Shown: one piece after another, positions 183 to 21,174 of the stretch | How positions within the stretch are numbered: position 1 is the first letter of the stretch | How the letters are laid out: each line of letters starts with the position of its first letter | Made by a program: the position numbers and the translations under genes | Notes under the pieces: generated by a model | What the model saw: the letters and a program-made list of their open reading frames with translations, nothing else | Database searches by the model: none | Told to the model about the DNA's origin: nothing | Assembly: GCF_902459525.1 (NCBI RefSeq) | Contig: NZ_LR699166.1 | Coordinates: 411,501-475,500 of the forward strand | DNA length: 64,000 bases | Direction: 5' to 3' | Source: Sideroxydans sp. CL21 | GTDB lineage: Bacteria; Pseudomonadota; Gammaproteobacteria; Burkholderiales; Gallionellaceae

Positions 183-1058
183 CTATGCGGGAGGCAGGGT
201 CTCCAGCGGGCTGATCACCTCGCGCAATAGATCGGTGGCCACTTGGGCATACAGCGCCGTCGTGTCCAATTTCTTGTGCCCGAGCAAAACCTGAATCAGC
301 CGGATATCGGTCTTTTGTTCCAGCAAGTGCGTGGCAAAACTGTGCCTCAGTGTATGCATCGAAACGCGCTTGTCGATATTCGCCGCATCAGCGGCAGCGT
401 GGATGGCGCGATTCAGTTGACGGGAACTCAACTGGTCAATCGGGTTCTGGCCGGGAAATAACCAGCCTCCATCCAGCATCTTGCCTTGAGCTCGTGCCGT
501 CTTCCACCACGTACGCAGGCATTCGAGCAGTACCGGAGAAAGCATCGCGTAGCGATCCTTGCTGCCTTTGCCTTGTTCAATACGCAATGCCATGCGCTCG
601 CTATCAATGTCACTGACCTTCAACGCCAACACTTCACTGGCACGCAATCCTGCACCGTAGGCAATCGATAGTGCTGTCTTGTATTTCAGATTTCCCGCAG
701 CGGCGATCAGACGTGCTACCTCGTCCTGACTCAACACCACCGGCAACTTGTGCGGAACGTGTACCGGTTGCATCTTGTTCATCAGTTCGGCACGATCGAT
801 TGTCGTCTCGAAGAAAAACTTCAGGCCAGTGATCGCCGCATTGAGTGAAATCGGCGAGATGCCGCGATCGACCAGGTGCAACTGATAGCGTCGCAGATCC
901 TCTGCGCTGGCCGTGTCGGGAGATCGGCCAAGCCAAGTACTAAATTGAATGACTGCGCGGAGGTAGGCGCTTTGTGTCTTGGGGGAGAGTTTGCGCATCC
1001 GCATGTCGTCGAGAAAGCGTTGGCGCAATGGAGAAACAGCTTGAGTCGTTGTGTTCAT
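183..1058 (-). CDS. Tyrosine recombinase accompanying an IS91-type transposase
   Basis: A 291-residue site-specific recombinase with a full N-terminal SAM-like core-binding domain (about residues 10-95) and a C-terminal catalytic domain. The catalytic arginine (GLRASEV), the HTLRHSF box, the GHKKL histidine and the terminal tyrosine in TTALYAQV are all present, so the enzyme should be active. The start at 1058 is chosen over one 13 codons upstream because AGGAG stands 8 nt before it. Its stop touches the start of the IS91 transposase at 170. It resembles integron/XerD-like enzymes, but the context points to the accessory recombinase of an IS91 element rather than an integron integrase; no attC arrays were seen nearby. 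Confidence 0.85.
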   Translation of the reverse strand: MNTTTQAVSPLRQRFLDDMRMRKLSPKTQSAYLRAVIQFSTWLGRSPDTASAEDLRRYQLHLVDRGISPISLNAAITGLKFFFETTIDRAELMNKMQPVHVPHKLPVVLSQDEVARLIAAAGNLKYKTALSIAYGAGLRASEVLALKVSDIDSERMALRIEQGKGSKDRYAMLSPVLLECLRTWWKTARAQGKMLDGGWLFPGQNPIDQLSSRQLNRAIHAAADAANIDKRVSMHTLRHSFATHLLEQKTDIRLIQVLLGHKKLDTTALYAQVATDLLREVISPLETLPPA

Positions 1059-1352
1059 GATTCTGCTCCTGTCGGGAAATGAGGCGGATTGCCTCACTTC
1101 TCAACATAAGGAGCAGTACTTCTCTGTCAATCACCTGCAGCCGCTAATTCGGAGCGCCCAATACCGCGGAGCGGTTTAGTCCGTTGGCCGCGTTCTGCCC
1201 GTTTGCCTTTGCTAACACCACCGTCCGTAGCTTACCCGATACCGGACCTTCACGACCTGCTGTTCCTAACCCGGAACGGATGGTCGTCAATGAATTTAGG
1301 TTTCCCGAAACCTGCCATTCGTGACCTGCGGCAATCGACCCAAAACAAGCTT

Positions 1353-2600: not shown

Positions 2601-3224
2601 CTAGACCTCCGTCTGTTCAGCCATCTCCAGCGCATCATCTACTTCGACCCCAAGGTAACGAACAGTACTCTCCAGCTTGGTATGTCCCAGCAATATCTGT
2701 ACTGCTCTAAGATTCTTGGTTCGGCGGTAAATCAACGTAGGTTTGGTTCTGCGCATCGTATGCGTGCCATAGCACGTCGTATCCAATCCGATCTCGCTGA
2801 CCCATTTATGTACGATCCTTGCGTACTGGCGCGTCGACAGATGAGGGGAGCCATCTATCCGACTGGGGAAGAGATGGTCTTCTGATCTCAAACCTGCGAC
2901 TTTGACCCAATTCATCAGGGATGTGCGCGTTGGCTCTGTAATCTCGAACTGAACGGGCCGTTGCGTCTTTTGCTGCAAGATAATGGTGCGTGTGGCTATG
3001 CGTTCCCCATGCGATACGTCCCGTACTCTAAGATTCATCAGATCGCATGCTCTGAGTTTGCTGTCGATGGCCAGGTTGAACAATGCAAGATCTCGTGGAT
3101 GTTCTTTCAACTGCAGTCGGACACGAATAGCCCAGATGTCCTGCAACCTGAGCGGCGCTTTCTGTCCTGTCAACTTTCCCTTGTTCCATGGCTCATGATG
3201 ACGAACGGCAATATCGGTTTCCAT
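2601..3224 (-). CDS. Short tyrosine recombinase (catalytic domain only)
   Basis: A 207-residue phage-integrase-family protein. It has almost no core-binding domain: about 25 residues precede the catalytic fold, which contains the active-site Arg (SKLRACDL), the HTMRRT box, GHTKLES and the nucleophile Tyr in VRYLGVE. Such truncated recombinases are common, usually solitary, proteobacterial proteins with unknown targets. The start at 3224 (METDIAV) is preferred over the codon four residues upstream, because homologous proteins begin with a short polar leader before PWNKGKLTGQKAPL. That choice is not certain. It sits among decayed repeats and may be a relic of an integrated element. Confidence 0.8.
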   Translation of the reverse strand: METDIAVRHHEPWNKGKLTGQKAPLRLQDIWAIRVRLQLKEHPRDLALFNLAIDSKLRACDLMNLRVRDVSHGERIATRTIILQQKTQRPVQFEITEPTRTSLMNWVKVAGLRSEDHLFPSRIDGSPHLSTRQYARIVHKWVSEIGLDTTCYGTHTMRRTKPTLIYRRTKNLRAVQILLGHTKLESTVRYLGVEVDDALEMAEQTEV

Positions 3225-3692
3225 GATTCTCTCCAAGTGAAAACGGAAAGATCACTTTGCGCCTTCCTGGGGGTGGTAATCAAGTAGCCCCATGTAGGCG
3301 AATACAGTCGAACTCTGCCTAGCAGAACGTACCGAGGTCTAGATACGGGTCTATATAATTTCCGGGGTTGCCTCGGCGCCACAATTCAAGCAGGATGCTG
3401 ATATCGTATGACCGCTTTCAATATTGGAACAGACGCTTGCATTTATGATCAACAAAGGACGCAAGTCGGCCACTTTGAGTCAGTCAAGATCGAGAATTCA
3501 CCGCCATAAAGCTGCCACTCATTTTCATCTACAACGTGCCAGTAACTGCCAGTTTTGACTGGCAGCTTTGCGGAAATTAAATGGCATCTGGAGTAGCCAT
3601 TCGCAGTTCTAGTACATATGTAATAGTTATATCAGGAGGTGTGACAATCTTCTCTCAGTCGCTGAAGGTTAACAGGCGATTTGAGTGAATCC
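3225..3692. other. Gene-free stretch with degenerate intergenic module
   Basis: No gene was recognised. Around 3461-3480 the phrase GTCGGCCACTTTGAGTCAGT echoes the module at 2466. It is followed by an internal inverted pair, CTGCCAGTTTTGACTGGCAG (about 3547-3566), able to form a short hairpin. The rest is featureless. Confidence 0.4.
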
Positions 3693-4217
3693 CTATTGCA
3701 TCCGGAAGCTCTCATGACAGGCAACGCATTGACGTGCGATCTTAGTAAGTGCCATATTGGCTTCTGTGATGCTTTGGATATTCTTGTCTGCATCGCGAGC
3801 TTTGACTGCAAACTCATTGGCAGCTCTATGCATATTCTGCCCAAGAACTCGCATTTCTTCAGGCATTAGCTGCTGCATTTGATAGTCAAGGTGATATGTT
3901 TTGGACATCTGCATCATCTTCATGTCTTTCGGCTGGCACCCAACAGCAGCAGATGAATTCATTCCTAGCCGATTGTCTGCGATATCAGCGGCCACTGCAT
4001 AATGTGCATTTGCAACTGCATCCATAATGTCAGCCAATGCTTTCAGATGGCCTCGCATGTTTGCCAATGCATGCGCTTTAACATCGGGCGGATAATTCAC
4101 CAGTTGGCGACTATCGTCGTTGATTACAGAAAGTGGTTGAGTGTGGCTTGTCATATCTTCAGCAAGAGCGGGAAAGTTGACGACCGTGCAAATTAATATG
4201 GCGAATAGAGTTTTCAT
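3693..4217 (-). CDS. Periplasmic cytochrome c'-like protein
   Basis: A 174-residue exported protein. The start at 4217 gives a clean signal peptide (MKTLFAILICTVVNFPALA, cleavage before EDM); a longer frame upstream would bury it. A single haem-binding CVACH lies six residues from the C-terminus, the position it takes in four-helix class II cytochromes c (c', c-556). The middle is helical and Met/Gln-rich (MKMMQMSK, MQQLMPEEM), with one further Cys before PKDMK. A role in electron transfer, or in gas or metal binding in the periplasm, is inferred from the fold only. It lies 136 nt downstream of the Met-rich outer-membrane protein gene on the same strand. An inverted repeat fills the gap, so co-transcription is plausible. 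Confidence 0.75.
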   Translation of the reverse strand: MKTLFAILICTVVNFPALAEDMTSHTQPLSVINDDSRQLVNYPPDVKAHALANMRGHLKALADIMDAVANAHYAVAADIADNRLGMNSSAAVGCQPKDMKMMQMSKTYHLDYQMQQLMPEEMRVLGQNMHRAANEFAVKARDADKNIQSITEANMALTKIARQCVACHESFRMQ

Positions 4218-4270
4218 AATGTCTCCGTAGACTGAAAATGTTGGTTCAATTGTTGTAAGCTTAGCAAGCG

Positions 4271-4353: not shown

Positions 4354-5526
4354 TTAAAACTCAGTTCCGAGTAACGCATTAAACGTCCAGGAATGACCCA
4401 ATTGAGGGCCATTGAGATTTTGAGTTATCGTTTTACCTATCTCGAATGCGGCATGTTGCTTCTTATATCCGAAGGGACCACCCGCTATCTCGACACCTCC
4501 GAGCAAATCGGTATGCTTCCCCCCATAAAAGTTCGGGTTTGTACCTTCCATCAAGCCCGAAATCATCGGATCAGAACCTCGAATCTGTCCCTGAATCGAT
4601 TCTGCGATACGGATAGTTGCGGTGATTCCAGGTGAAGAGGAATAACCACCCCATGCTGTCAATTCGTTTAAATTGCCATAACGGTATCCTTCCGAGTTAT
4701 TACCGAGTGGAAAACGGCTACGCCAGGCAGTACCCCATGACCAGTTATTTGTGTGGCTTGTCACGGTTAAGCCGGGCATCAGATCATAGGTACCTGTCCC
4801 GAGCTGCATTCCATAACTTGCACGCATGGTCATAAACTTATTCATTGGGCTTAACATGGCTATATTTTGCGTTGCACTACCAGTTGGCAGGCTAAGTCCG
4901 AGGTTCAGAATAACTGCATATGAGTGATCTTTGTATACCCGCCACAACGAGCCGATGATGGTATCGCCCACCCCCTCGGTGGTTGCCGAGCTTGAGCCAA
5001 GTACGGTTGTGCCTGATGCGCCTGAAAATGTAATCATGTTCATTGACTTGCGTAGATAAGAGGCCATGGCCATTAAATTGAAATTGTCAGTCACTCCGTA
5101 CATTAAGTTGAACATATGTGACTGCACGTCCATAGTTGTCGGCACAATTCTATACATTTCCTTTATTGGCCCCATAGCCCCAGTCATTGTCACTTGAGAG
5201 GGAATCGTGGTCGCAATTGTTTGAGGCGAAACCGTGGAGGAGCCGATGTAGTTATCTTCCATATGCATAAACATTGGCGTATAGCTGAACGCGAATTTTC
5301 CTGTACTTACTACATTTCCTCCTTGGACCCCTGCCGGCATTTTGCTGTGGTCGTTCATGTGGTGATCTGGCATGGACTTGTCGTCGATGCTGGCTTCTGT
5401 GGACGGATCGGACGAAATATCAGCCGCCTGTACTGGTGATATGGATACTGCTGAAACTAAAACAGATAGAGACATGATCAGTGCTGCGGTGGGTTGAAAA
5501 AAAAATGAGCGTGGCATAATTGGCAT
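4354..5526 (-). CDS. Met-rich outer-membrane beta-barrel transporter-like protein
   Basis: A 390-residue protein with a long signal peptide (ending near ISPVQAADI), a His/Met/Asp-rich N-terminal segment (DHHMNDHSKMP) and then alternating strands typical of the MetA-pathway/transporter family of outer-membrane barrels. It ends in aromatic Phe (LLGTEF), as barrel proteins do. Methionine is strikingly frequent (for example MFMHMEDN, FNLMAMASY, MNMITF), which suggests contact with soft metals such as copper; this is inference. The start at 5526 is supported by GGAAAG 7 nt upstream; the frame itself extends 33 codons further without a good site. A sigma-54 promoter (5596-5611) and a ModE-like box (5680-5703) lie upstream. 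The substrate is unknown. Confidence 0.75.
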   Translation of the reverse strand: MPIMPRSFFFQPTAALIMSLSVLVSAVSISPVQAADISSDPSTEASIDDKSMPDHHMNDHSKMPAGVQGGNVVSTGKFAFSYTPMFMHMEDNYIGSSTVSPQTIATTIPSQVTMTGAMGPIKEMYRIVPTTMDVQSHMFNLMYGVTDNFNLMAMASYLRKSMNMITFSGASGTTVLGSSSATTEGVGDTIIGSLWRVYKDHSYAVILNLGLSLPTGSATQNIAMLSPMNKFMTMRASYGMQLGTGTYDLMPGLTVTSHTNNWSWGTAWRSRFPLGNNSEGYRYGNLNELTAWGGYSSSPGITATIRIAESIQGQIRGSDPMISGLMEGTNPNFYGGKHTDLLGGVEIAGGPFGYKKQHAAFEIGKTITQNLNGPQLGHSWTFNALLGTEF

Positions 5527-5595
5527 GACAATTCTTTCCAAAAGGTTAATGCAGTCGCTATATATTGCTATACATAACGAAGCTGAGCCATTTTG

Positions 5596-5611
5596 AGCAA
5601 GACCGATGCCA
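5596..5611 (-). promoter_or_regulatory. Sigma-54 promoter of the Met-rich outer-membrane gene
   Basis: The reverse strand reads TGGCATC-GGTC-TTGCT, matching the -24 (TGGCA) and -12 (TTGC) elements of RpoN promoters with exact GG-to-GC spacing. It lies 70 nt before the start codon at 5526. Confidence 0.75.
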
Positions 5612-5679
5612 GCAATAAATAACATTAATAAACAATAAGGTAAATAATTAATGGAATGTATCTGTCATAAGTACTACAA

Positions 5680-5703
5680 CGACATGTAGTAATGTATACA
5701 ACG
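5680..5703 (-). promoter_or_regulatory. ModE-like operator / upstream activating site 1
   Basis: The reverse strand reads CGTTGTAT-N7-TACATGTCG. This has the length and layout of the E. coli modA operator recalled as CGTTATAT-N7-TACATAACG. A further half-site, CGTTGTAGT, overlaps its end. The gap to the sigma-54 promoter at 5596-5611 is 68 nt, identical to the arrangement at 7168-7275. The following stretch to 6024 shows no other clear signal. Confidence 0.7.
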
Positions 5704-6024
5704 ATGATATGTGGCCTTTTTATGAGCGAATAAACACAAAATAGACAAGAAGCGGATAGTGAATTATTTCTTTATAGATTTTGACTGGCGACAACTCGAT
5801 GCCCACAATTGCGAATGTCCGGTTTGAAAAGCGAATTTACGAAGCTCAGTGGCAGTTCCAGTTACGCTGAGACCTATGAAAAATTGAAAATAGAGCGGCA
5901 GCTATGAGGTTGGAAGCGCATGTTCGCAGGTAAGATGAACAAAGGGTATTCATTATGAATATATTTTGATTGCGCTAAATGTAGCTATTATTTTCGTGCG
6001 CCACAAATTTAGTGTGAGGTCTAA

Positions 6025-6825
6025 ATGGCAAAGTCGAGTAATACTGGAAAAAGTGAACCAAGTGTTGCGTCCATCTTCAAGGGAAGAAGATGGGATCAGT
6101 TGGAATTATTAGAGCTAATAGACTCAACGGGTTCCATCACGGCAGCGGCATCTGCTATGAACATTAGCTATAAAACTGCTTGGGAAGCAGTTGAAAGTAT
6201 CAACAATCTGTCTGGTCAGCCATTGCTTGAGCGCAAGACAGGTGGTAAGCATGGCGGTGGTACGACACTCACTGTTTATGGTCGCCGTGTGGTTGGTGCA
6301 TACCGCCGTTTGGAGCAGGAACGGGAACAAGTATTAAAAAAGCTGGCGTTGGTGATTGACGATTTCGATGAGTATTATCGTTTGATAAGAGGGTTCGATA
6401 TGAAGACGAGCGCTCGCAATCAATTTGTTGGAAAAATACAAAGCATCAAGCTTGGAGCAATCAACGCCGAAGTAGTGATGGACATCGGCGGCGGCGATAC
6501 CTTGGCTGCAGTGGTTACCAACGATAGCATCAATCATCTCGGATTGAAAGTTGGTATAGATGTCCATGCCTTGATCAAGGCACCTTGGGTGATCGTAACC
6601 ACTTCCGAAGATTTTAAAAGCAGTGCTCGTAATGAACTACGCGGCACAGTAGTGCGTTGCCAGGATGGAGCCATCAACGGCGAAGTCATCATCGAACTCA
6701 CCGGCGGCAAGACTGTTGTGGCCATCGTAACCAACGATAGCATCAAGTCGTTAGGTCTCAAAGAGGGTGTGAAGGCAACAGCGTTGATCAAGGCATCACA
6801 CATTATATTGGCTGTCTATTCATAA
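6025..6825 (+). CDS. modE: Molybdate-responsive regulator ModE, copy 1
   Basis: A 266-residue transcription factor with the standard ModE layout (E. coli 262). The N-terminal winged helix-turn-helix (about 20-120) has the STGSITAAASAM recognition region and the GGKHGGG wing. It is followed by two tandem Mop/TOBE molybdate-binding repeats (about 130-195 and 200-265), each opening with SARN (SARNQFVGKI, SARNELRGTV) and carrying N-D-S-I near the end. It should bind molybdate or tungstate in the cytoplasm and control genes through ModE boxes. It stands between two outer-membrane protein genes whose upstream regions carry such boxes, and has a close paralogue at 9049-9855. No ModE box or sigma-54 promoter was seen in front of this copy. 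Confidence 0.93.
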   Translation: MAKSSNTGKSEPSVASIFKGRRWDQLELLELIDSTGSITAAASAMNISYKTAWEAVESINNLSGQPLLERKTGGKHGGGTTLTVYGRRVVGAYRRLEQEREQVLKKLALVIDDFDEYYRLIRGFDMKTSARNQFVGKIQSIKLGAINAEVVMDIGGGDTLAAVVTNDSINHLGLKVGIDVHALIKAPWVIVTTSEDFKSSARNELRGTVVRCQDGAINGEVIIELTGGKTVVAIVTNDSIKSLGLKEGVKATALIKASHIILAVYS

Positions 6826-7167
6826 ATAGAAAGAAATGTGCCGCAAAAGAAAGCAACGCCACAAGTTTTCCTCGCACGGAATGTCAACCTGATGAGTTGA
6901 AGTGCTGATTGAATGCACTTTGGTTCTAAATCGGATTATCCAGAACTTTCATTTCCCAAGAGTTGATATTTCCACGCCATTGGGCCAGAAATCAGCTGCA
7001 TCCCTAGTTACAACCATCACAAGGCCGTTGTGCCTATAAACGCGTCTCGATTCACTCGCGGATCAGGCGCATATGGCTTTGCACATTGCTGAAGACTTAA
7101 ATTATCCAAAATGCGCTCATGGTTTCCAAGCACCAGATGCCTGTCCAGGTAAAGCGACTTCGTTAAT
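6826..7167. other. Gene-free stretch after modE copy 1
   Basis: No gene, terminator or RNA gene was recognised between the modE stop and the ModE-like box at 7168. On the reverse strand a 43-codon open stretch (7017-7148) contains LGNHERIL, reminiscent of a phosphoesterase GNHE motif. It has no start codon and is probably chance or a tiny relic. Confidence 0.35.
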
Positions 7168-7191
7168 CGTTGTAGATAACACTACATATCG
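7168..7191 (+). promoter_or_regulatory. ModE-like operator / upstream activating site 2
   Basis: Reads CGTTGTAG-N7-TACATATCG, the best match among three to the ModE operator pattern, immediately followed by another half-site CGTTGTAAT. The following 17 nt align without gaps to those after box 1 and share TTGTA and TGACA. The gap to the sigma-54 promoter at 7260 is 68 nt. Confidence 0.75.
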
Positions 7192-7259
7192 TTGTAATGT
7201 CTCTGACATTCATAAATAATGAAAATTTTAACATAATGAAAGTAAAGGTAATTAATTTC

Positions 7260-7275
7260 TGGCATGTACTTTGCG
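7260..7275 (+). promoter_or_regulatory. Sigma-54 promoter of outer-membrane gene at 7398
   Basis: Reads TGGCATG-TACT-TTGCG, with -24 and -12 elements at consensus spacing. It lies about 120 nt before the ATG at 7398. A long AT-rich leader follows, then AAGGAG as ribosome-binding site. Confidence 0.75.
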
Positions 7276-7397
7276 ATGGCTGATGTGGAAACGTTAGTAA
7301 TAAAAGTACATTACGCAATTACTAATGAATTTATTAATATGTAATATGTTCGTTATTCCCGATAGGGAATAACGTTTAATTTAAGGAGACTACCGAA

Positions 7398-8264
7398 ATG
7401 ATCAAACCCAATAGAATTTATTCCGCAGCGATTGTCATAGCCGCCGGCTTGATTGCATCGCCTGCGTTTGCCGAAGATGAATCATTTTTCTCAAACTGGT
7501 TAGCCAATGTCAGCAGCACTCAGGAAGAACAACCGCACTGGATGACACCCCTGGTGACAGTAACCCCGCGTCTGGAGCAGGAGTACAGATTCGACTATAG
7601 CCATTCAGATGTGCCCAAACCTAAAGCAGGCACAACCATTGACAGTTACGGGGGCGGCAAAGGGATTGAAATTATCCCAAGCAGAAATACCGAGATCATT
7701 GTCGGTGTGCCGGCCTATCAAGTAAAAGACGTTCCAAACAAGCCGAGCGTCACCGGAGTGGCTGATGAAAATCTGTTGCTGAAATATCGGATACTTACGG
7801 CGAATGAAGAACATGGCAATTACATCGTCACCGCTTTCCTCGGAACGAGCCTGCAAACCGGGGGCAATGCATTTACCACCAATCACACGCTTGTCACGCC
7901 CACCATCGCTGCCGGTAAGGGGTGGGGCGATCGACAGTCGGGGGTAGATATTCAGAGCACATTGGGAATGGCCGTTCCATCAGGCGGGGTGAGCACTCTA
8001 GGAAGGCCCCTTACCTGGAATATGGCATTGCAAGGACATGTGGGCAAGTTCTGGCCGGAGATTGAAACCAACTATATACACTGGTATGACGGGGCGCTTG
8101 CCGGTAAAAGTCAAATGATGATCACCTATGGGACTACTATCGGCCGATTCGTGATCAAGGACCGCGTCAAGGCAATAGTTGGGATTGGATATCAGATCGT
8201 ACAGGGAACACAAGTTGTCAACCTGAACCACGCTACGCTGGCCACAATGCGTATTACATTCTAG
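7398..8264 (+). CDS. Outer-membrane beta-barrel transporter-like protein
   Basis: A 288-residue protein with a signal peptide (MIKPNRIYSAAIVIAAGLIA..., cleavage after SPAFA) and a body of amphipathic strands ending in Phe (MRITF), as in the MetA-pathway/transporter outer-membrane family. It is shorter than, and not obviously paralogous to, the Met-rich protein at 4354-5526, but both share the same promoter design (ModE-like box, 68-nt gap, sigma-54 promoter). AAGGAG 9 nt before the ATG supports the start. An attractive inference is uptake of an oxyanion or metal needed by molybdenum or tungsten metabolism; the sequence itself does not show a substrate. It converges with the HTH gene at 8296. 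Confidence 0.7.
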   Translation: MIKPNRIYSAAIVIAAGLIASPAFAEDESFFSNWLANVSSTQEEQPHWMTPLVTVTPRLEQEYRFDYSHSDVPKPKAGTTIDSYGGGKGIEIIPSRNTEIIVGVPAYQVKDVPNKPSVTGVADENLLLKYRILTANEEHGNYIVTAFLGTSLQTGGNAFTTNHTLVTPTIAAGKGWGDRQSGVDIQSTLGMAVPSGGVSTLGRPLTWNMALQGHVGKFWPEIETNYIHWYDGALAGKSQMMITYGTTIGRFVIKDRVKAIVGIGYQIVQGTQVVNLNHATLATMRITF

Positions 8265-8295
8265 GAGGGCTAACAGGTTGAAAAAGGTGGGGTAC

Positions 8296-8640
8296 TCATT
8301 TTTGAGATAAGTTGGAAAGAATTTGGTTAAGCTCCTTATCGGCAAAGCGGGAAACTTTGGTTTCCAAATCCCGATAATTTTGGAGAATTGTAATTCCTAA
8401 TTCACTGACTTCTGCCCCACCGCCATGAGTACCTCCCTTCGCGGTTAGAACGAGTGGATATTTAAAACATTGATTCATAACATTCACCAACTCCCAAGCG
8501 CGGCGATATGACATCTTCATTTTTTTCGCTGCTTTTGTAATGGAGCCAAATTCCTGTATGGCTTCGAGCAATTCTGCTTTACCTGGCCCCATAGCGGTGT
8601 CTATTCCGCTTGAAATTCTAATTTTTAAATTCTTGTTCAT
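8296..8640 (-). CDS. ModE-type helix-turn-helix protein lacking molybdate domains
   Basis: A 114-residue protein consisting only of the ModE N-terminal winged helix: AIQEFGSITKAAKKMKMSYRRAW is the HTH and KGGTHGGGAEVSELG the wing. No Mop/TOBE repeat follows, so molybdate would have to be sensed by a partner, or the protein is constitutive. Such single-domain ModE relatives exist next to molybdate genes in other bacteria. The start at 8640 (MNKNLK) or a GTG four codons upstream cannot be decided: neither has a strong ribosome-binding site. It is divergent from modE copy 2, and ModE-like box 3 lies in the shared region. It might compete with or modulate the two full-length ModE proteins. Confidence 0.85.
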   Translation of the reverse strand: MNKNLKIRISSGIDTAMGPGKAELLEAIQEFGSITKAAKKMKMSYRRAWELVNVMNQCFKYPLVLTAKGGTHGGGAEVSELGITILQNYRDLETKVSRFADKELNQILSNLSQK

Positions 8641-8852
8641 GTAGGTACGCACAGAGCTCGCTCAGCCTAAAGCCTTAACAAGGCTAGACTCATTCATTTT
8701 CTGTAGCAAAATTTGAATATCAAATAGTATCTCAAGCGACAATCACCTCTAATCTAATTCACCATTTCGAAGGGTCAGCAATGTCCAAAACATATTGATC
8801 GATTTAGTTGCATTATCAATGTAATGAAATTAACCAAGTCCGATTAAAAAAT

Positions 8853-8876
8853 CGTTGTAGCGAGAAATACATAAGA
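8853..8876 (+). promoter_or_regulatory. ModE-like operator / upstream activating site 3
   Basis: Reads CGTTGTAG-N7-TACATAAGA. The left half is identical to box 2 and the right half is weaker. It lies between the divergent ModE-type genes, 116 nt before the sigma-54 promoter at 8993, and lacks the extra half-site found after boxes 1 and 2. Confidence 0.6.
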
Positions 8877-8992
8877 GACATCAATATTGTGTCGAATGCA
8901 ACAAATTCGCCGTTTTAATTTGAAACTGACTTTCAGCTAAATTGGCTTGAATACTAGTATCTGTGCGGCATGAGTACATATGCAGTTCAATA

Positions 8993-9008
8993 TGGCATCG
9001 CTTTTGCT
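8993..9008 (+). promoter_or_regulatory. Sigma-54 promoter of the modE2-modA unit
   Basis: Reads TGGCATC-GCTT-TTGCT, a full -24/-12 match with correct spacing, ending 40 nt before the ATG at 9049. Confidence 0.75.
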
Positions 9009-9048
9009 GACCGTTATGTTGTGAATAGTTATAACGCATGAGGTCGCA

Positions 9049-9855
9049 ATGGCACAATTAGCTGAAATGAAGACAGAACCTATTAATTTGCCGAAGTTGA
9101 AAATTGCCAAGGGGCACCGTTGGGATCATCTTGAATTGTTGGAACGTATCGAAACAACAGGTTCTATTACTGCTGCAGCGAGTGCGATGAAAATGAATTA
9201 TGAGGCAGCTTGGGAAGCGGTTGAGATAGTCAATAACCTTTCCGAGCAGCCGTTGGTTGAACGCAAAGCTAGCGGACAACATGGTACCAGGGCTACACTG
9301 ACGACCTATGGTCGACGAGTGGTAGGAGCATATCGCCGCTTGGAGCAGGAGCGCGAGCAAGTACTCAAAACGCTCGGTCGAATCATGGATGACTTTGATG
9401 AGTATTATCACATGATGAGGAGATTCGACATGAAGACGAGCGCACGCAATCAATTTCTTGGAAAAATTAAAAGCATCAAAATTGGAGCGGTAAATTCAGA
9501 AGTGATTTTGGATATTGGAGGTGGCGATTCAATTGCAGCCATCATCACCAATGAAAGTGTGGATCATCTTGCATTGAAGGTCGGTAAAGAAGCTTATGCG
9601 TTGATCAAAGCCCCTTGGGTTATCGTAACCACCTCCGATGGATTCAAGACAAGTGCGCGCAACGAGTTGAGGGGTACGATTGTGCGTTGCCAGGAAGGTG
9701 CAGTAAACGGCGAAGTTATCATCGAGCTGGCTGGCGGAAAGAGTGTGGCCGCAGTGGTGACGAATGACAGCATCAAGACATTAGGACTTAAAGATGGTGT
9801 AAAGGCTTGTGCGTTGATCAAAGCTTCGCACGTTGTATTGGCGGTTAATGCATAA
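9049..9855 (+). CDS. modE: Molybdate-responsive regulator ModE, copy 2
   Basis: A 268-residue ModE closely resembling copy 1 over its whole length. The HTH is at about 22-120 (TTGSITAAASAMKMNYEAAWEAV), followed by two Mop repeats starting SARNQFLGKI and SARNELRGTI. It differs in the wing (SGQHGTRATL instead of the Gly-rich KHGGG), a region that contacts DNA, so target choice may have diverged. The start at ATG 9049 follows GAGGTCGCA. It is transcribed together with modA, which begins 10 nt downstream, from a sigma-54 promoter with a ModE-like box upstream; autoregulation is likely. The duplication looks lineage-local because the copies flank one outer-membrane gene. Confidence 0.93.
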   Translation: MAQLAEMKTEPINLPKLKIAKGHRWDHLELLERIETTGSITAAASAMKMNYEAAWEAVEIVNNLSEQPLVERKASGQHGTRATLTTYGRRVVGAYRRLEQEREQVLKTLGRIMDDFDEYYHMMRRFDMKTSARNQFLGKIKSIKIGAVNSEVILDIGGGDSIAAIITNESVDHLALKVGKEAYALIKAPWVIVTTSDGFKTSARNELRGTIVRCQEGAVNGEVIIELAGGKSVAAVVTNDSIKTLGLKDGVKACALIKASHVVLAVNA

Positions 9856-9865
9856 AGGAACCAAT

Positions 9866-10633
9866 ATGAATTCGCGTCATTTTGAGTTGTGGGCTATTGC
9901 TGCTGCACTATTGTTTGGTACGATAGCTAGTTCGGTGAATGCAGGTGAAGTGAATGCGGCTGTTGCGGCTAATTTCACTGCACCAGTGCAACAGATCGTC
10001 GAACTTTTCCAAAAGGAGACTGGGAATACGGTAAAACTCAGTTTTGGCTCCACCGGAAAGTTCTATTCCCAAATCAAAGAAGGCGCGCCATTCGATGTGT
10101 TACTCGCAGCAGATGAAAAGACTCCCAAGCTGATAGAGCAGGAAGGTCTAGCCGTCGCCAACAGCCGCTTTGTCTATGCTTTGGGCAAGCTGGTATTGTG
10201 GAGTGCAAAGCCCGGATTTGTGGATGACAAAGGTGCGGTGCTGAACAAGGGTAACTATAATAAGCTATCCTACGCCGACCCCAAGCTTGCTCCCTACGGA
10301 TTGGCAGCCCAAGAGACTTTGCAAAAACTCGAACTGTGGGACAAGGTGCAAAACAAGCTAGTGACAGGCGAAAGTATTTCTCAAGCCTATCAATTTGCTG
10401 CAACGGGCAATGCCGAATTGGCATTCATTGCTCTGTCGCAAATTACAAAAGACGGCAAAGTAACTGAAGGTTCGTCGTGGGTAGTTCCAGCGAATCTATA
10501 TACACCCATCAAACAAGGTGCAGTATTGTTGTCTGCCGCGAAAGATAAAGCAGCAGCACAAGCTTTTCTGGCATTCCTGAAGAGCGAAAAAGCCGAAGCT
10601 ATTATTCGTAGCTTTGGGTACGAGTTGCCCTGA
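9866..10633 (+). CDS. modA: Molybdate-binding periplasmic protein ModA (orphan)
   Basis: A 255-residue precursor of the substrate-binding subunit of a molybdate ABC transporter. A signal peptide (ending SSVNAGEV) precedes the ModA fold with VAANFTAPVQQI, FGSTGKFYSQI and the PFDVLLAADEKTP segment that lines the oxyanion pocket. AAAGGAA before ATG 9866 fixes the start; a longer frame overlapping modE is unlikely. Unlike most mod operons, no modB permease or modC ATPase follows: the next 500 nt are gene-free. The binding protein must therefore work with a permease encoded elsewhere, or serve as a periplasmic buffer for molybdate delivered by the outer-membrane proteins nearby (inference). Confidence 0.9.
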   Translation: MNSRHFELWAIAAALLFGTIASSVNAGEVNAAVAANFTAPVQQIVELFQKETGNTVKLSFGSTGKFYSQIKEGAPFDVLLAADEKTPKLIEQEGLAVANSRFVYALGKLVLWSAKPGFVDDKGAVLNKGNYNKLSYADPKLAPYGLAAQETLQKLELWDKVQNKLVTGESISQAYQFAATGNAELAFIALSQITKDGKVTEGSSWVVPANLYTPIKQGAVLLSAAKDKAAAQAFLAFLKSEKAEAIIRSFGYELP

Positions 10634-19915: not shown

Positions 19916-20230
19916 ATGACCCTGCGAACTCACGTACCGAAGCCGCTGACGGTTGAGCAGGTGTGCGCACTCTATACGTTGCACCCTAAAACGGTGCAAC
20001 GGATGGCGCGGCATGGCGAGATGCCAGCCTTCAAGATGGGAAAAAACTGGCGCTTTTATGACGTTGACCTTGTTACACACTTTAGAGCACAATCGATGCC
20101 GCTGGTGTTGGTAGGTGCGCATGCAAAGGAAATTAAACCATGTCACTTTACCAAAGAAAAAACTCCCCCTATATCTGGTGTAAGTTCACCGTCAAAGGAA
20201 AGCTTGTACAACAGTCTACTGGGGCTGTAA
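19916..20230 (+). CDS. Excisionase-like helix-turn-helix protein
   Basis: About 104 residues from ATG 19916; a longer frame begins at 19850. The core, PLTVEQVCALYTLHPKTVQRMARHGEMPAFKMGKNWRF, is the MerR-like helix-turn-helix with wing of the excisionase/DNA-binding family. The end of the gene overlaps the start of the integrase (20140) by 91 nt in another frame, so the C-terminal tail after KPCHFTK is dictated by that overlap. It likely controls directionality of recombination or integrase expression. Confidence 0.75.
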   Translation: MTLRTHVPKPLTVEQVCALYTLHPKTVQRMARHGEMPAFKMGKNWRFYDVDLVTHFRAQSMPLVLVGAHAKEIKPCHFTKEKTPPISGVSSPSKESLYNSLLGL

Positions 20231-21174
20231 CACGTAAAGAAGCAAAAGAGTTTGAAGCAAAACTCAGAGTGGAATTGTTAAACAAGGCCGAACAAGTCGT
20301 AAAGCCGGTTCGAACCTGGAATGATGCCGTTGAAAAGTTTTACGCTGAAAAGCTGATCGTCGTAGCGCCCGAACCTGATCGCTCCATCTTGAAATGGCTA
20401 CACCCGCACCTTTCCGGTGTCGATATTGCCACGATGAATCGAGAGTATCTTTCTAAGGTCGGTGACAAGAAGTTGGCCGAAGGAGTTAAACCCTCGACGG
20501 TGAATCGGTTGATGAAGTTGGTGAGAGCAGTTCTGCATCAAGCGGTGGTTTGGGAGTGGTTGGACAAATCACCCAAGGTTAGGATGTTTCCCACCAGTGA
20601 AGTCAACTTGCGGTTTATCACTCGGGACGAGGCCGATAAATTGGTTGCGGCTTTACCAGACCATCTGGCTATTTTGGCAGAGTTCAGTTTTCAGACGGGT
20701 TTGCGCAGGTCGAATGCAACCCATTTGAAATGGTCTCAGCTGAATTTGGAGAGGAAGCAGGCGTGGGTGAATGCGTCGGATGCCAAGATGCGTAGGCCGA
20801 TTCCCGTTCCATTAAGTGATGTTGCAATCCGCTTGATCGAGTCGCAGAAGGGTAACCATGATGTGTACGTTTTTGCACACAATGGTAAACCGATTGTGAG
20901 TACGGCACGCCCTGATTGGTATGCGGCATTGAAGGCAACAGGCATCAAGTCCTTTCGCTGGCATGACATTCGGAAGACGTGGGCATCATGGCACGTGCAG
21001 AACGGAACGACATTGCTGGAATTGAAAGAGCTTGGTGGTTGGACTGACTATAGAAGTGTGTTGGTCTATGCGCATTTGGGTAGCCAGCATCTTGCCAAGT
21101 GTGTCAATCTGCCCGTAGGTTTGGCTACATTAAAAGCTACACAAGCAGTACAAGAGATGGCGCTAGCGGCCTAA
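20140..21174 (+). CDS. Phage-type tyrosine integrase
   Basis: A 344-residue integrase. The N-terminal arm-binding part (MSLYQRKNSPYIWCKFTVKG) is followed by a core-binding domain (about 60-160) and a catalytic domain with Arg in TGLRRSN, HDIRKTW, a second His in GGW context and the nucleophile Tyr in VLVYAHL. All catalytic residues are present. It is preceded by an overlapping excisionase gene. The attachment site was not found; no tRNA gene lies close. Confidence 0.87.
   Translation: MSLYQRKNSPYIWCKFTVKGKLVQQSTGAVTRKEAKEFEAKLRVELLNKAEQVVKPVRTWNDAVEKFYAEKLIVVAPEPDRSILKWLHPHLSGVDIATMNREYLSKVGDKKLAEGVKPSTVNRLMKLVRAVLHQAVVWEWLDKSPKVRMFPTSEVNLRFITRDEADKLVAALPDHLAILAEFSFQTGLRRSNATHLKWSQLNLERKQAWVNASDAKMRRPIPVPLSDVAIRLIESQKGNHDVYVFAHNGKPIVSTARPDWYAALKATGIKSFRWHDIRKTWASWHVQNGTTLLELKELGGWTDYRSVLVYAHLGSQHLAKCVNLPVGLATLKATQAVQEMALAA

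Follow-up and report, generated by a model that had tools for sequence, protein, structure and literature searches.

The window analysed here is a 64,000-nt stretch of DNA from Sideroxydans sp. CL21 (contig NZ_LR699166.1, positions 411,501 to 475,500 of the forward strand), and its own numbering is used for positions. It carries a molybdate-linked gene set, as the initial annotation of this DNA had held, comprising genes for two unnamed putative outer-membrane proteins (OMP1 and OMP2), modE1 between them, a gene for the ModE DNA-binding domain alone (ModE-N) and a modE2-modA pair (Table 1). OMP1, OMP2 and modE2 are each preceded by a sigma-54 -24/-12 core and, farther upstream, by a 24-bp box (5680-5703 on the minus strand, 7168-7191 and 8853-8876 on the plus strand). 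The letters and spacings of the three boxes are as first described, and their placement as upstream activating sites of sigma-54 promoters held when coordinates and spacing were rechecked, with a box-to-promoter gap of 68 nt in both outer-membrane promoters and 116 nt at modE2. The boxes had been described as ModE-like; judged from their letters and surroundings, they are above all predicted NifA upstream activator sequences.

Paired TGT-N10-ACA sites before three sigma-54 cores

Read as CGT-TGT-N10-ACA-T, each of the three boxes contains an exact TGT-N10-ACA, and a second copy of this element lies 22 bp downstream in both OMP promoters and 32 bp downstream at modE2. The 17 nt reported to align after the OMP boxes are the start of this second copy. 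TGT-N10-ACA is the NifA binding consensus, typically located no more than 150 bp from the transcription start (PMC7294313; this and the other papers cited by PMC number are represented here by parts of their text), and the same element and its usual upstream place are also given in PMC2820453. At all three promoters, the -24/-12 core TGGC-N7-TTGC is accompanied by two copies of the element within about 150 bp upstream of the predicted start. The distal modE2 copy stands at the edge of this range, its centre being at about -153, and is extra to the site that lies at the conserved spacing.

The genome also carries nifA, which scored 684.6 bits including a second stretch against a profile-model cut-off of 528.85, together with nifD (877.6 bits, over the cut-off) and a nifH model match (442.3 bits). 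The nif region has the same promoter layout: a NifA-type site lies 96 nt before the core of the nifH promoter, and the modE paralogue in the nif cluster has a core identical to that of modE2 in the window, again with a NifA-type site 89 nt before it. The 100-kb nif region contains 20 exact sigma-54 cores, and at 6 of them a site is located 40-130 nt upstream (shuffles: mean 0.14, maximum 2). Genome-wide, a site followed by a core at 40-70 nt occurs in five places, compared with none in the reversed control; the five comprise both OMP promoters, one place within the nif region and two further matches. The suggestion that the activator is an unknown one is not borne out, since the boxes are predicted NifA sites, nifA is present over its cut-off and nif genes share the layout.

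The extended pattern CGTTGTA-N8-TACAT occurs exactly at 5684-5703 (minus strand), 7168-7187 and 8853-8872 (both plus strand), and these are its sole exact matches in the 3.77-Mb genome. With up to two mismatches, the window holds 8 matches against 2.66 expected (maximum of 100 shuffles, 6), two of which are second copies of the NifA-type site. With one mismatch, the genome-wide count is 9, whereas the reversed control gives 24, and the signal is thus confined to the exact form. A version of the pattern with an N7 spacer gave 14 matches, none of them the boxes, and N8 is the right spacer. The sigma-54 pattern on its own is no evidence either, with 109 matches at up to one mismatch against 96 expected. 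The stretch 5000-10000 holds four exact cores, three of which are accompanied by two or more TGT-N10-ACA sites 40-130 nt upstream and by a ModE-like box downstream, whereas none of 2000 dinucleotide shuffles of this interval gave a core with two sites or with such a box; the box was defined in this test by at most 4 mismatches to a local consensus that is itself drawn from these boxes.

Table 1. Predicted promoter elements and genes of the molybdate-linked set (window numbering)
Feature	Position	Strand	Remarks
Sigma-54 -24/-12 core of OMP1	5597..5611	-	TGGCATCGGTCTTGC; full match
Sigma-54 core of OMP2	7260..7274	+	TGGCATGTACTTTGC; full match
Sigma-54 core of modE2-modA	8993..9007	+	TGGCATCGCTTTTGC; identical to core of nif-cluster modE paralogue
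NifA-type upstream activator site, OMP1 distal	5685..5700	-	inside box 5680-5703; also ModE-like
NifA-type upstream activator site, OMP1 proximal	5663..5678	-	22 bp from distal copy
NifA-type upstream activator site, OMP2 distal	7171..7186	+	inside box 7168-7191; ModE-like
NifA-type upstream activator site, OMP2 proximal	7193..7208	+	22 bp past distal copy
NifA-type site, modE2 distal	8856..8871	+	inside box 8853-8876; 121 nt before core
NifA-type upstream activator site, modE2	8888..8903	+	conserved spacing, 89 nt before core
ModE-type operator of OMP1	5556..5579	-	CGTTATGTATAGCAATATATAGCG; about +7 to +30; 1/16 mismatches to E. coli consensus
Weak ModE-type operator of OMP2	7292..7315	+	CGTTAGTAATAAAAGTACATTACG; about +7 to +30, offset as in OMP1
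ModE-type operator of modE2	9012..9036	+	CGTTATGTTGTGAATAGTTATAACG; 25 bp over predicted start; 5 mismatches to E. coli consensus
OMP1, putative outer-membrane channel	4354..5526	-	signal peptide and C-terminal F, by eye
Small CxxCH protein behind OMP1	3693..4220	-	weak cytochrome c' match, below cut-off
modE1, full-length ModE	6025..6825	+	two Mop/TOBE domains; between OMP1 and OMP2
OMP2, putative outer-membrane protein	7398..8264	+	unnamed family; signal peptide and C-terminal F, by eye
ModE-N, ModE DNA-binding domain alone	8296..8652	-	convergent with OMP2
modE2, full-length ModE	9049..9855	+	followed by modA
modA, molybdate-binding protein	9866..10633	+	follows modE2

ModE-type operators and conservation in relatives

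ModE-type operators were scored over 164 kb against the E. coli-type operator CGNTATATA-N6-TATATANCG with 16 scored positions, the consensus being taken from PMC545781. A local consensus, CGTTATGT-N8-ACATAACG, was also used, which is drawn from the boxes found here and is hence circular. Rescoring with the E. coli consensus weakened the start boxes of OMP2 and modE2 and strengthened the upstream boxes of OMP1 and OMP2. By this measure, the operator at the OMP1 start is the best ModE site in the 164 kb; the operator at the OMP2 start differs from the local consensus at 4 positions and from the E. coli consensus at 5, and the position of the modE2 start operator is conserved in relatives. The gene of a TonB receptor, divergent from the nif-cluster modE, has the operator CGTTATGTACTAATTTACATAACC, with 3 mismatches to the E. 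coli consensus.

The upstream boxes themselves have 3/16 (OMP1), 3/16 (OMP2) and 6 (modE2) mismatches to the E. coli consensus, and those of OMP1 and OMP2 and the TonB-receptor box are the only ModE sites with 3 mismatches in the 164 kb, none having 2. TGT-N10-ACA occurs there at 31 sites. Of the 10 positions that this element leaves free, 7, 7 and 6 agree with ModE in the three boxes and fewer than 6 at every other site, the other 28 sites having at least 7 mismatches to the E. coli consensus; this result holds although each site can be read in two possible ModE frames, giving 62 readings. The earlier description of the boxes as ModE boxes may hold in part, in that they are the most ModE-like of the 31 sites; the third, however, has 6 mismatches. 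ModE-type sites appear to take part in these promoters, but the strongest of them lies at the OMP1 start and not in a box.

The promoter arrangement of modE2 is conserved. A search with the modE2 protein in 149 relatives gave 30 loci (loci and genomes of the comparison bear our L and G numbers), of which 28 were used, including that of this genome; L071, whose match begins at residue 81, and L072, at 60 percent identity, were dropped. A sigma-54 core with at most one mismatch is present at 27 of the 28, and a NifA site lies 40-160 nt upstream at 25, compared with a mean of 0.95 and a maximum of 5 in 500 first-order Markov resamples; at 22 loci, the distance from this site to the core is 84-91 nt (resamples: mean 0.08, maximum 1). 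These loci share descent and so are not independent. At 24 of the 28 loci, an operator was found within 5 mismatches of the local consensus; in addition, L047 has a good one just beyond the scanned range, and those of L044 and L061 have 6 mismatches. Among the conserved sites, bases vary both inside and beside the element, whose TGT and ACA were preset in the search. At 13 of the 28 loci, a second core and operator occupy the opposite strand, both promoters having the one NifA site in common; the divergent gene was confirmed as a TonB receptor in this genome only. Among the 149 relatives, 41 have nifD over its cut-off. For the 28 genomes with modE loci the number is 22; of the others, five gave lower-scoring matches, and G086, whose locus L063 is coreless, gave none.

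Homologues of OMP2 are found in 24 of 399 genomes of the order. Nine of 26 new OMP2 loci, all from other families, have a core together with TGT-N10-ACA, and this combination was found at none of six earlier distant OMP2 loci (L025-L029, L032). At L117 and L119-L123, an E. coli-type ModE box follows the core, with 1, 3, 1, 0, 1 and 1 mismatches, respectively. At L128, L129 and L132, which belong to one genus, no ModE box was found after the core. Here, the NifA site, a conserved island in the alignment, is CGTTGTATCGAAAGAAACATAACG or close to it and matches ModE at 9, 8 and 9 of the 10 free positions; its mismatches number 2-3/16 against the local consensus and 4-5 against that of E. coli. In each of these three genomes, nifA precedes OMP2 on the same strand, with 326-348 nt between the matched stretches. 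An OMP1 orthologue in G023 (57 percent identity) has a pair of NifA sites at a spacing of 22 bp; the distal site, CGTTGTGTTATTTAATACATAACG, matches ModE at 10 of 10 free positions and has 4 mismatches to the E. coli consensus; no operator was found at its start. Of the genomes searched for nifA, 7 of the 9 that have the OMP2 architecture and 5 of the 19 others carry it over the cut-off (Fisher one-sided p 0.015, with lineages that are not independent and with G023, included for OMP1, among the 19).

A two-input reading of the promoters and its alternatives

The sites, their spacing and conservation and the presence of nifA are read directly from the DNA. From them we infer binding by NifA and ModE, the sign of the ModE control and the transport function, and we propose, with a probability of about 0.85, that these are NifA-activated sigma-54 promoters with molybdate-loaded ModE as the repressor, i.e., an AND gate. 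The genes would form a molybdate-uptake set separate from the main nif cluster, each promoter being braked by a ModE operator. When fixed nitrogen is short, NifA would bind TGT-N10-ACA, of which each promoter has two, and open the sigma-54 polymerase at -24/-12. When there is enough molybdate inside, ModE-molybdate would occupy the operators over or just after the start and block transcription; at the distal boxes, where ModE-like sequence lies on the NifA site, ModE would probably also hinder NifA. The set would then be expressed only under demand for Mo-nitrogenase combined with a shortage of molybdate, OMP1 and OMP2 presumably passing the oxyanion through the outer membrane and ModA binding molybdate in the periplasm.

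Several observations weigh against this proposal. Core and site are not found together at 17 of the 26 new OMP2 loci (15 are coreless, and L126 and L138 have a core without the site) or at any of 26 distant OMP1 loci. The 28 modE loci include two without a NifA site in range (L056 and L069) and one without a core (L063). The OMP2 paralogue closest to it within this genome (C1:590088-590951, L030) has a perfect palindrome of the local ModE type and a one-mismatch core without TGT-N10-ACA. G214 and G284 have the OMP2 architecture without nifA over the cut-off, and these exceptions count against NifA as the sole user of the site. The OMP2 and modE2 start operators have 5 mismatches to the E. coli consensus, like 24 places in the 164 kb, and the modE start boxes of relatives have 5-8, so that the evidence for the modE start boxes rests on position and conservation. 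A genome-wide count of boxes within 3 mismatches of the local consensus gave no excess (12 compared with 18 in the control). In addition, the roles of OMP1 and OMP2 as channels or molybdate carriers are putative, and fold predictions are uninformative (single-sequence AlphaFold models with a mean predicted local distance difference test score of 32.3 for OMP1 and 28.6 for OMP2).

It is improbable that the boxes are ModE sites only, with bound ModE helping or hindering another sigma-54 activator, as happens with the sigma-54 activator FhlA at hyc of E. coli. For the FhlA-dependent fhl regulon, ModE serves as a secondary activator (PMC2636881), the OMP1 and OMP2 boxes have just 3/16 mismatches to the E. 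coli consensus, the three boxes lead the 31 sites in ModE likeness, and nifA over the cut-off is missing from two of the genomes that show the OMP2 layout. However, such a role would have to accommodate an exact TGT-N10-ACA in every box and in the second copy, the same site at the nif promoters of this genome and separate operators at the starts; ModE likeness is lacking in the second copies and in almost all of the conserved modE-promoter sites.

That TGT-N10-ACA is used by another enhancer-binding protein of this genome, or by one of the AnfA or VnfA type, appears quite improbable. Although seven places other than nifA give sub-cut-off matches to the central domain of the nifA model (E 7.8e-104 to 5.9e-79), and although the sites persist in the two genomes without nifA over the cut-off, TGT-N10-ACA is the stated NifA consensus (PMC7294313), OMP2 adjoins nifA in three genomes, and nifA and nif genes are present in this genome. 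A third account, to which we give hardly any credence, would take the likeness of the promoters as a leftover of gene duplication without present function: all three promoters fall in a 3.5-kb stretch, and the modE2 paralogue in the nif cluster, at 81 percent identity, has the same promoter. Against this account, the motif positions are kept while the intervening DNA differs, across families too. The proposed control by NifA and ModE is, in our assessment, the reading that these data favour.

A further, tentative proposal, to which we give slightly less than even odds, is that the distal box is a dual site, serving as a NifA enhancer and a ModE operator at once, on which molybdate-loaded ModE would compete with NifA. 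In the four promoters without a start operator (OMP1 of G023; OMP2 of G359, G301 and G387), the ModE likeness of the NifA site is 10, 9, 8 and 9 of 10, whereas in the six promoters with a start operator it is at most 2 or 3 of 10; the corresponding mismatches to the E. coli consensus are 4, 4, 5 and 4 compared with 9-10/16. The strong ModE site seems to lie either at the start or on the NifA site. This either-or pattern, from six and four promoters with two families on each side, is suggestive and not proof; in two other lineages, the NifA site itself is a good ModE box, suggesting competition. In the window, OMP2, with a weak start box and a NifA site at 3 mismatches, and OMP1, with both good, would be intermediates of operator turnover.

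The regulatory logic is already known, and the scheme proposed here would be a variant of it. The initial annotation suggested that an RpoN-based molybdate regulon with outer-membrane proteins would be new, which is not so for the idea as a whole: in Rhodobacter capsulatus, the molybdate-transporter-like morAB genes are activated by NifA and RpoN (sigma-54) and repressed in response to Mo by the ModE-like MopA/MopB at Mo-boxes (PMC6925177). In contrast to morAB, which encode an ATP-binding cassette transporter, the targets here are putative outer-membrane genes, modE-modA and a TonB receptor, and the window promoters have two NifA sites each, with NifA sites that resemble ModE boxes. Azotobacter vinelandii likewise has sigma-54 promoters at the Mo-related modA2B2C2 and anfA genes, with a putative ModE site over one of three anfA starts, but the activator of modA2B2C2 is VnfA1, and these genes are not apparently ModE-regulated according to the parts of the report at hand (PMC9542535). 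The nif-island modAB of Pseudomonas stutzeri A1501 is among the predicted NifA-sigma-54-dependent operons; unlike the set described here, this operon has no outer-membrane genes, and no ModE operator is mentioned in the parts of that report at hand (PMC2820453). E. coli hyc is similar in that ModE acts there with FhlA as a secondary activator (PMC2636881). FhlA is a sigma-54 activator. The positions found here, by contrast, predict repression by ModE. In Azoarcus BH72, modA1 and modE rise under nitrogen fixation (PMC3916325), and in Sideroxydans ES-1 the nif cluster is adjoined by molybdate-transport genes (PMC3770913).

What looks new are the outer-membrane targets and the shared NifA/ModE binding sites. 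In the part of the openly available literature on NifA, ModE and molybdate that was covered, most subscription papers being outside the search, we found no description of outer-membrane genes under NifA and ModE, nor of paired NifA sites or shared NifA/ModE sites. To our knowledge, the outer-membrane passage of molybdate in nitrogen fixers has been little studied. Genes wired to NifA and ModE as predicted here, i.e., those of the two unnamed putative outer-membrane proteins and the TonB receptor, would be good candidates for a dedicated outer-membrane molybdate route, and their promoters would represent a compact natural two-input gate in which enhancer site and repressor operator may share DNA.

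Neighbouring genes and minor observations

The start codon of OMP1, an ATG downstream of the predicted transcription start, was picked by eye. Against the Pfam family Phenol_MetA_deg, OMP1 scored 18.1 bits, under the gathering score of 22, and OMP2 gave no match; a profile search of the PDB with OMP2 returned nothing credible (best E 0.061). The gene of the small CxxCH protein is possibly on the OMP1 transcript. Just upstream of modE1, neither a NifA-type promoter nor a ModE box was found. No modB or modC follows modA in the open reading frame (ORF) list of the window, whereas the nif-cluster modE, to which modE2 is 81 percent identical, is followed by genes read from the ORF list only as modA, modB and modC. 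Behind the nif-cluster TonB receptor lie genes (L113 2200-4823) for a solute-binding protein and a di-haem oxidoreductase (DHOR), which are possibly part of the same NifA/ModE unit.

ModE-N is without molybdate-binding domains, and copies 64-66 percent identical to it (L025 1156-1494 and L116) lie beside OMP2 homologues in G130 and G313, which belong to another family and are without nifA over the cut-off. The OMP2 paralogue at L030 is 95 percent identical to OMP2, and its different promoter is also found in a second species (L024). A palindrome at C1:2800531, with 2 mismatches, was not taken as an operator: it lies behind another ORF and may be a terminator or other hairpin.

The leader of OMP2 contains a perfect 10-bp inverted repeat at 7351-7374, CGTTATTCCC-GATA-GGGAATAACG, and folds better than its shuffles (z -3.1, with 1 of 200 as good). 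This palindrome could be an RNA hairpin or an operator; it was not found in the two OMP2-paralogue leaders compared. Integrase genes lie near the ends of the left 21 kb of the window (183-1097, by Pfam; 2601-3236 and 20140-21174, by eye), and this part may be an acquired island carrying the molybdate set.

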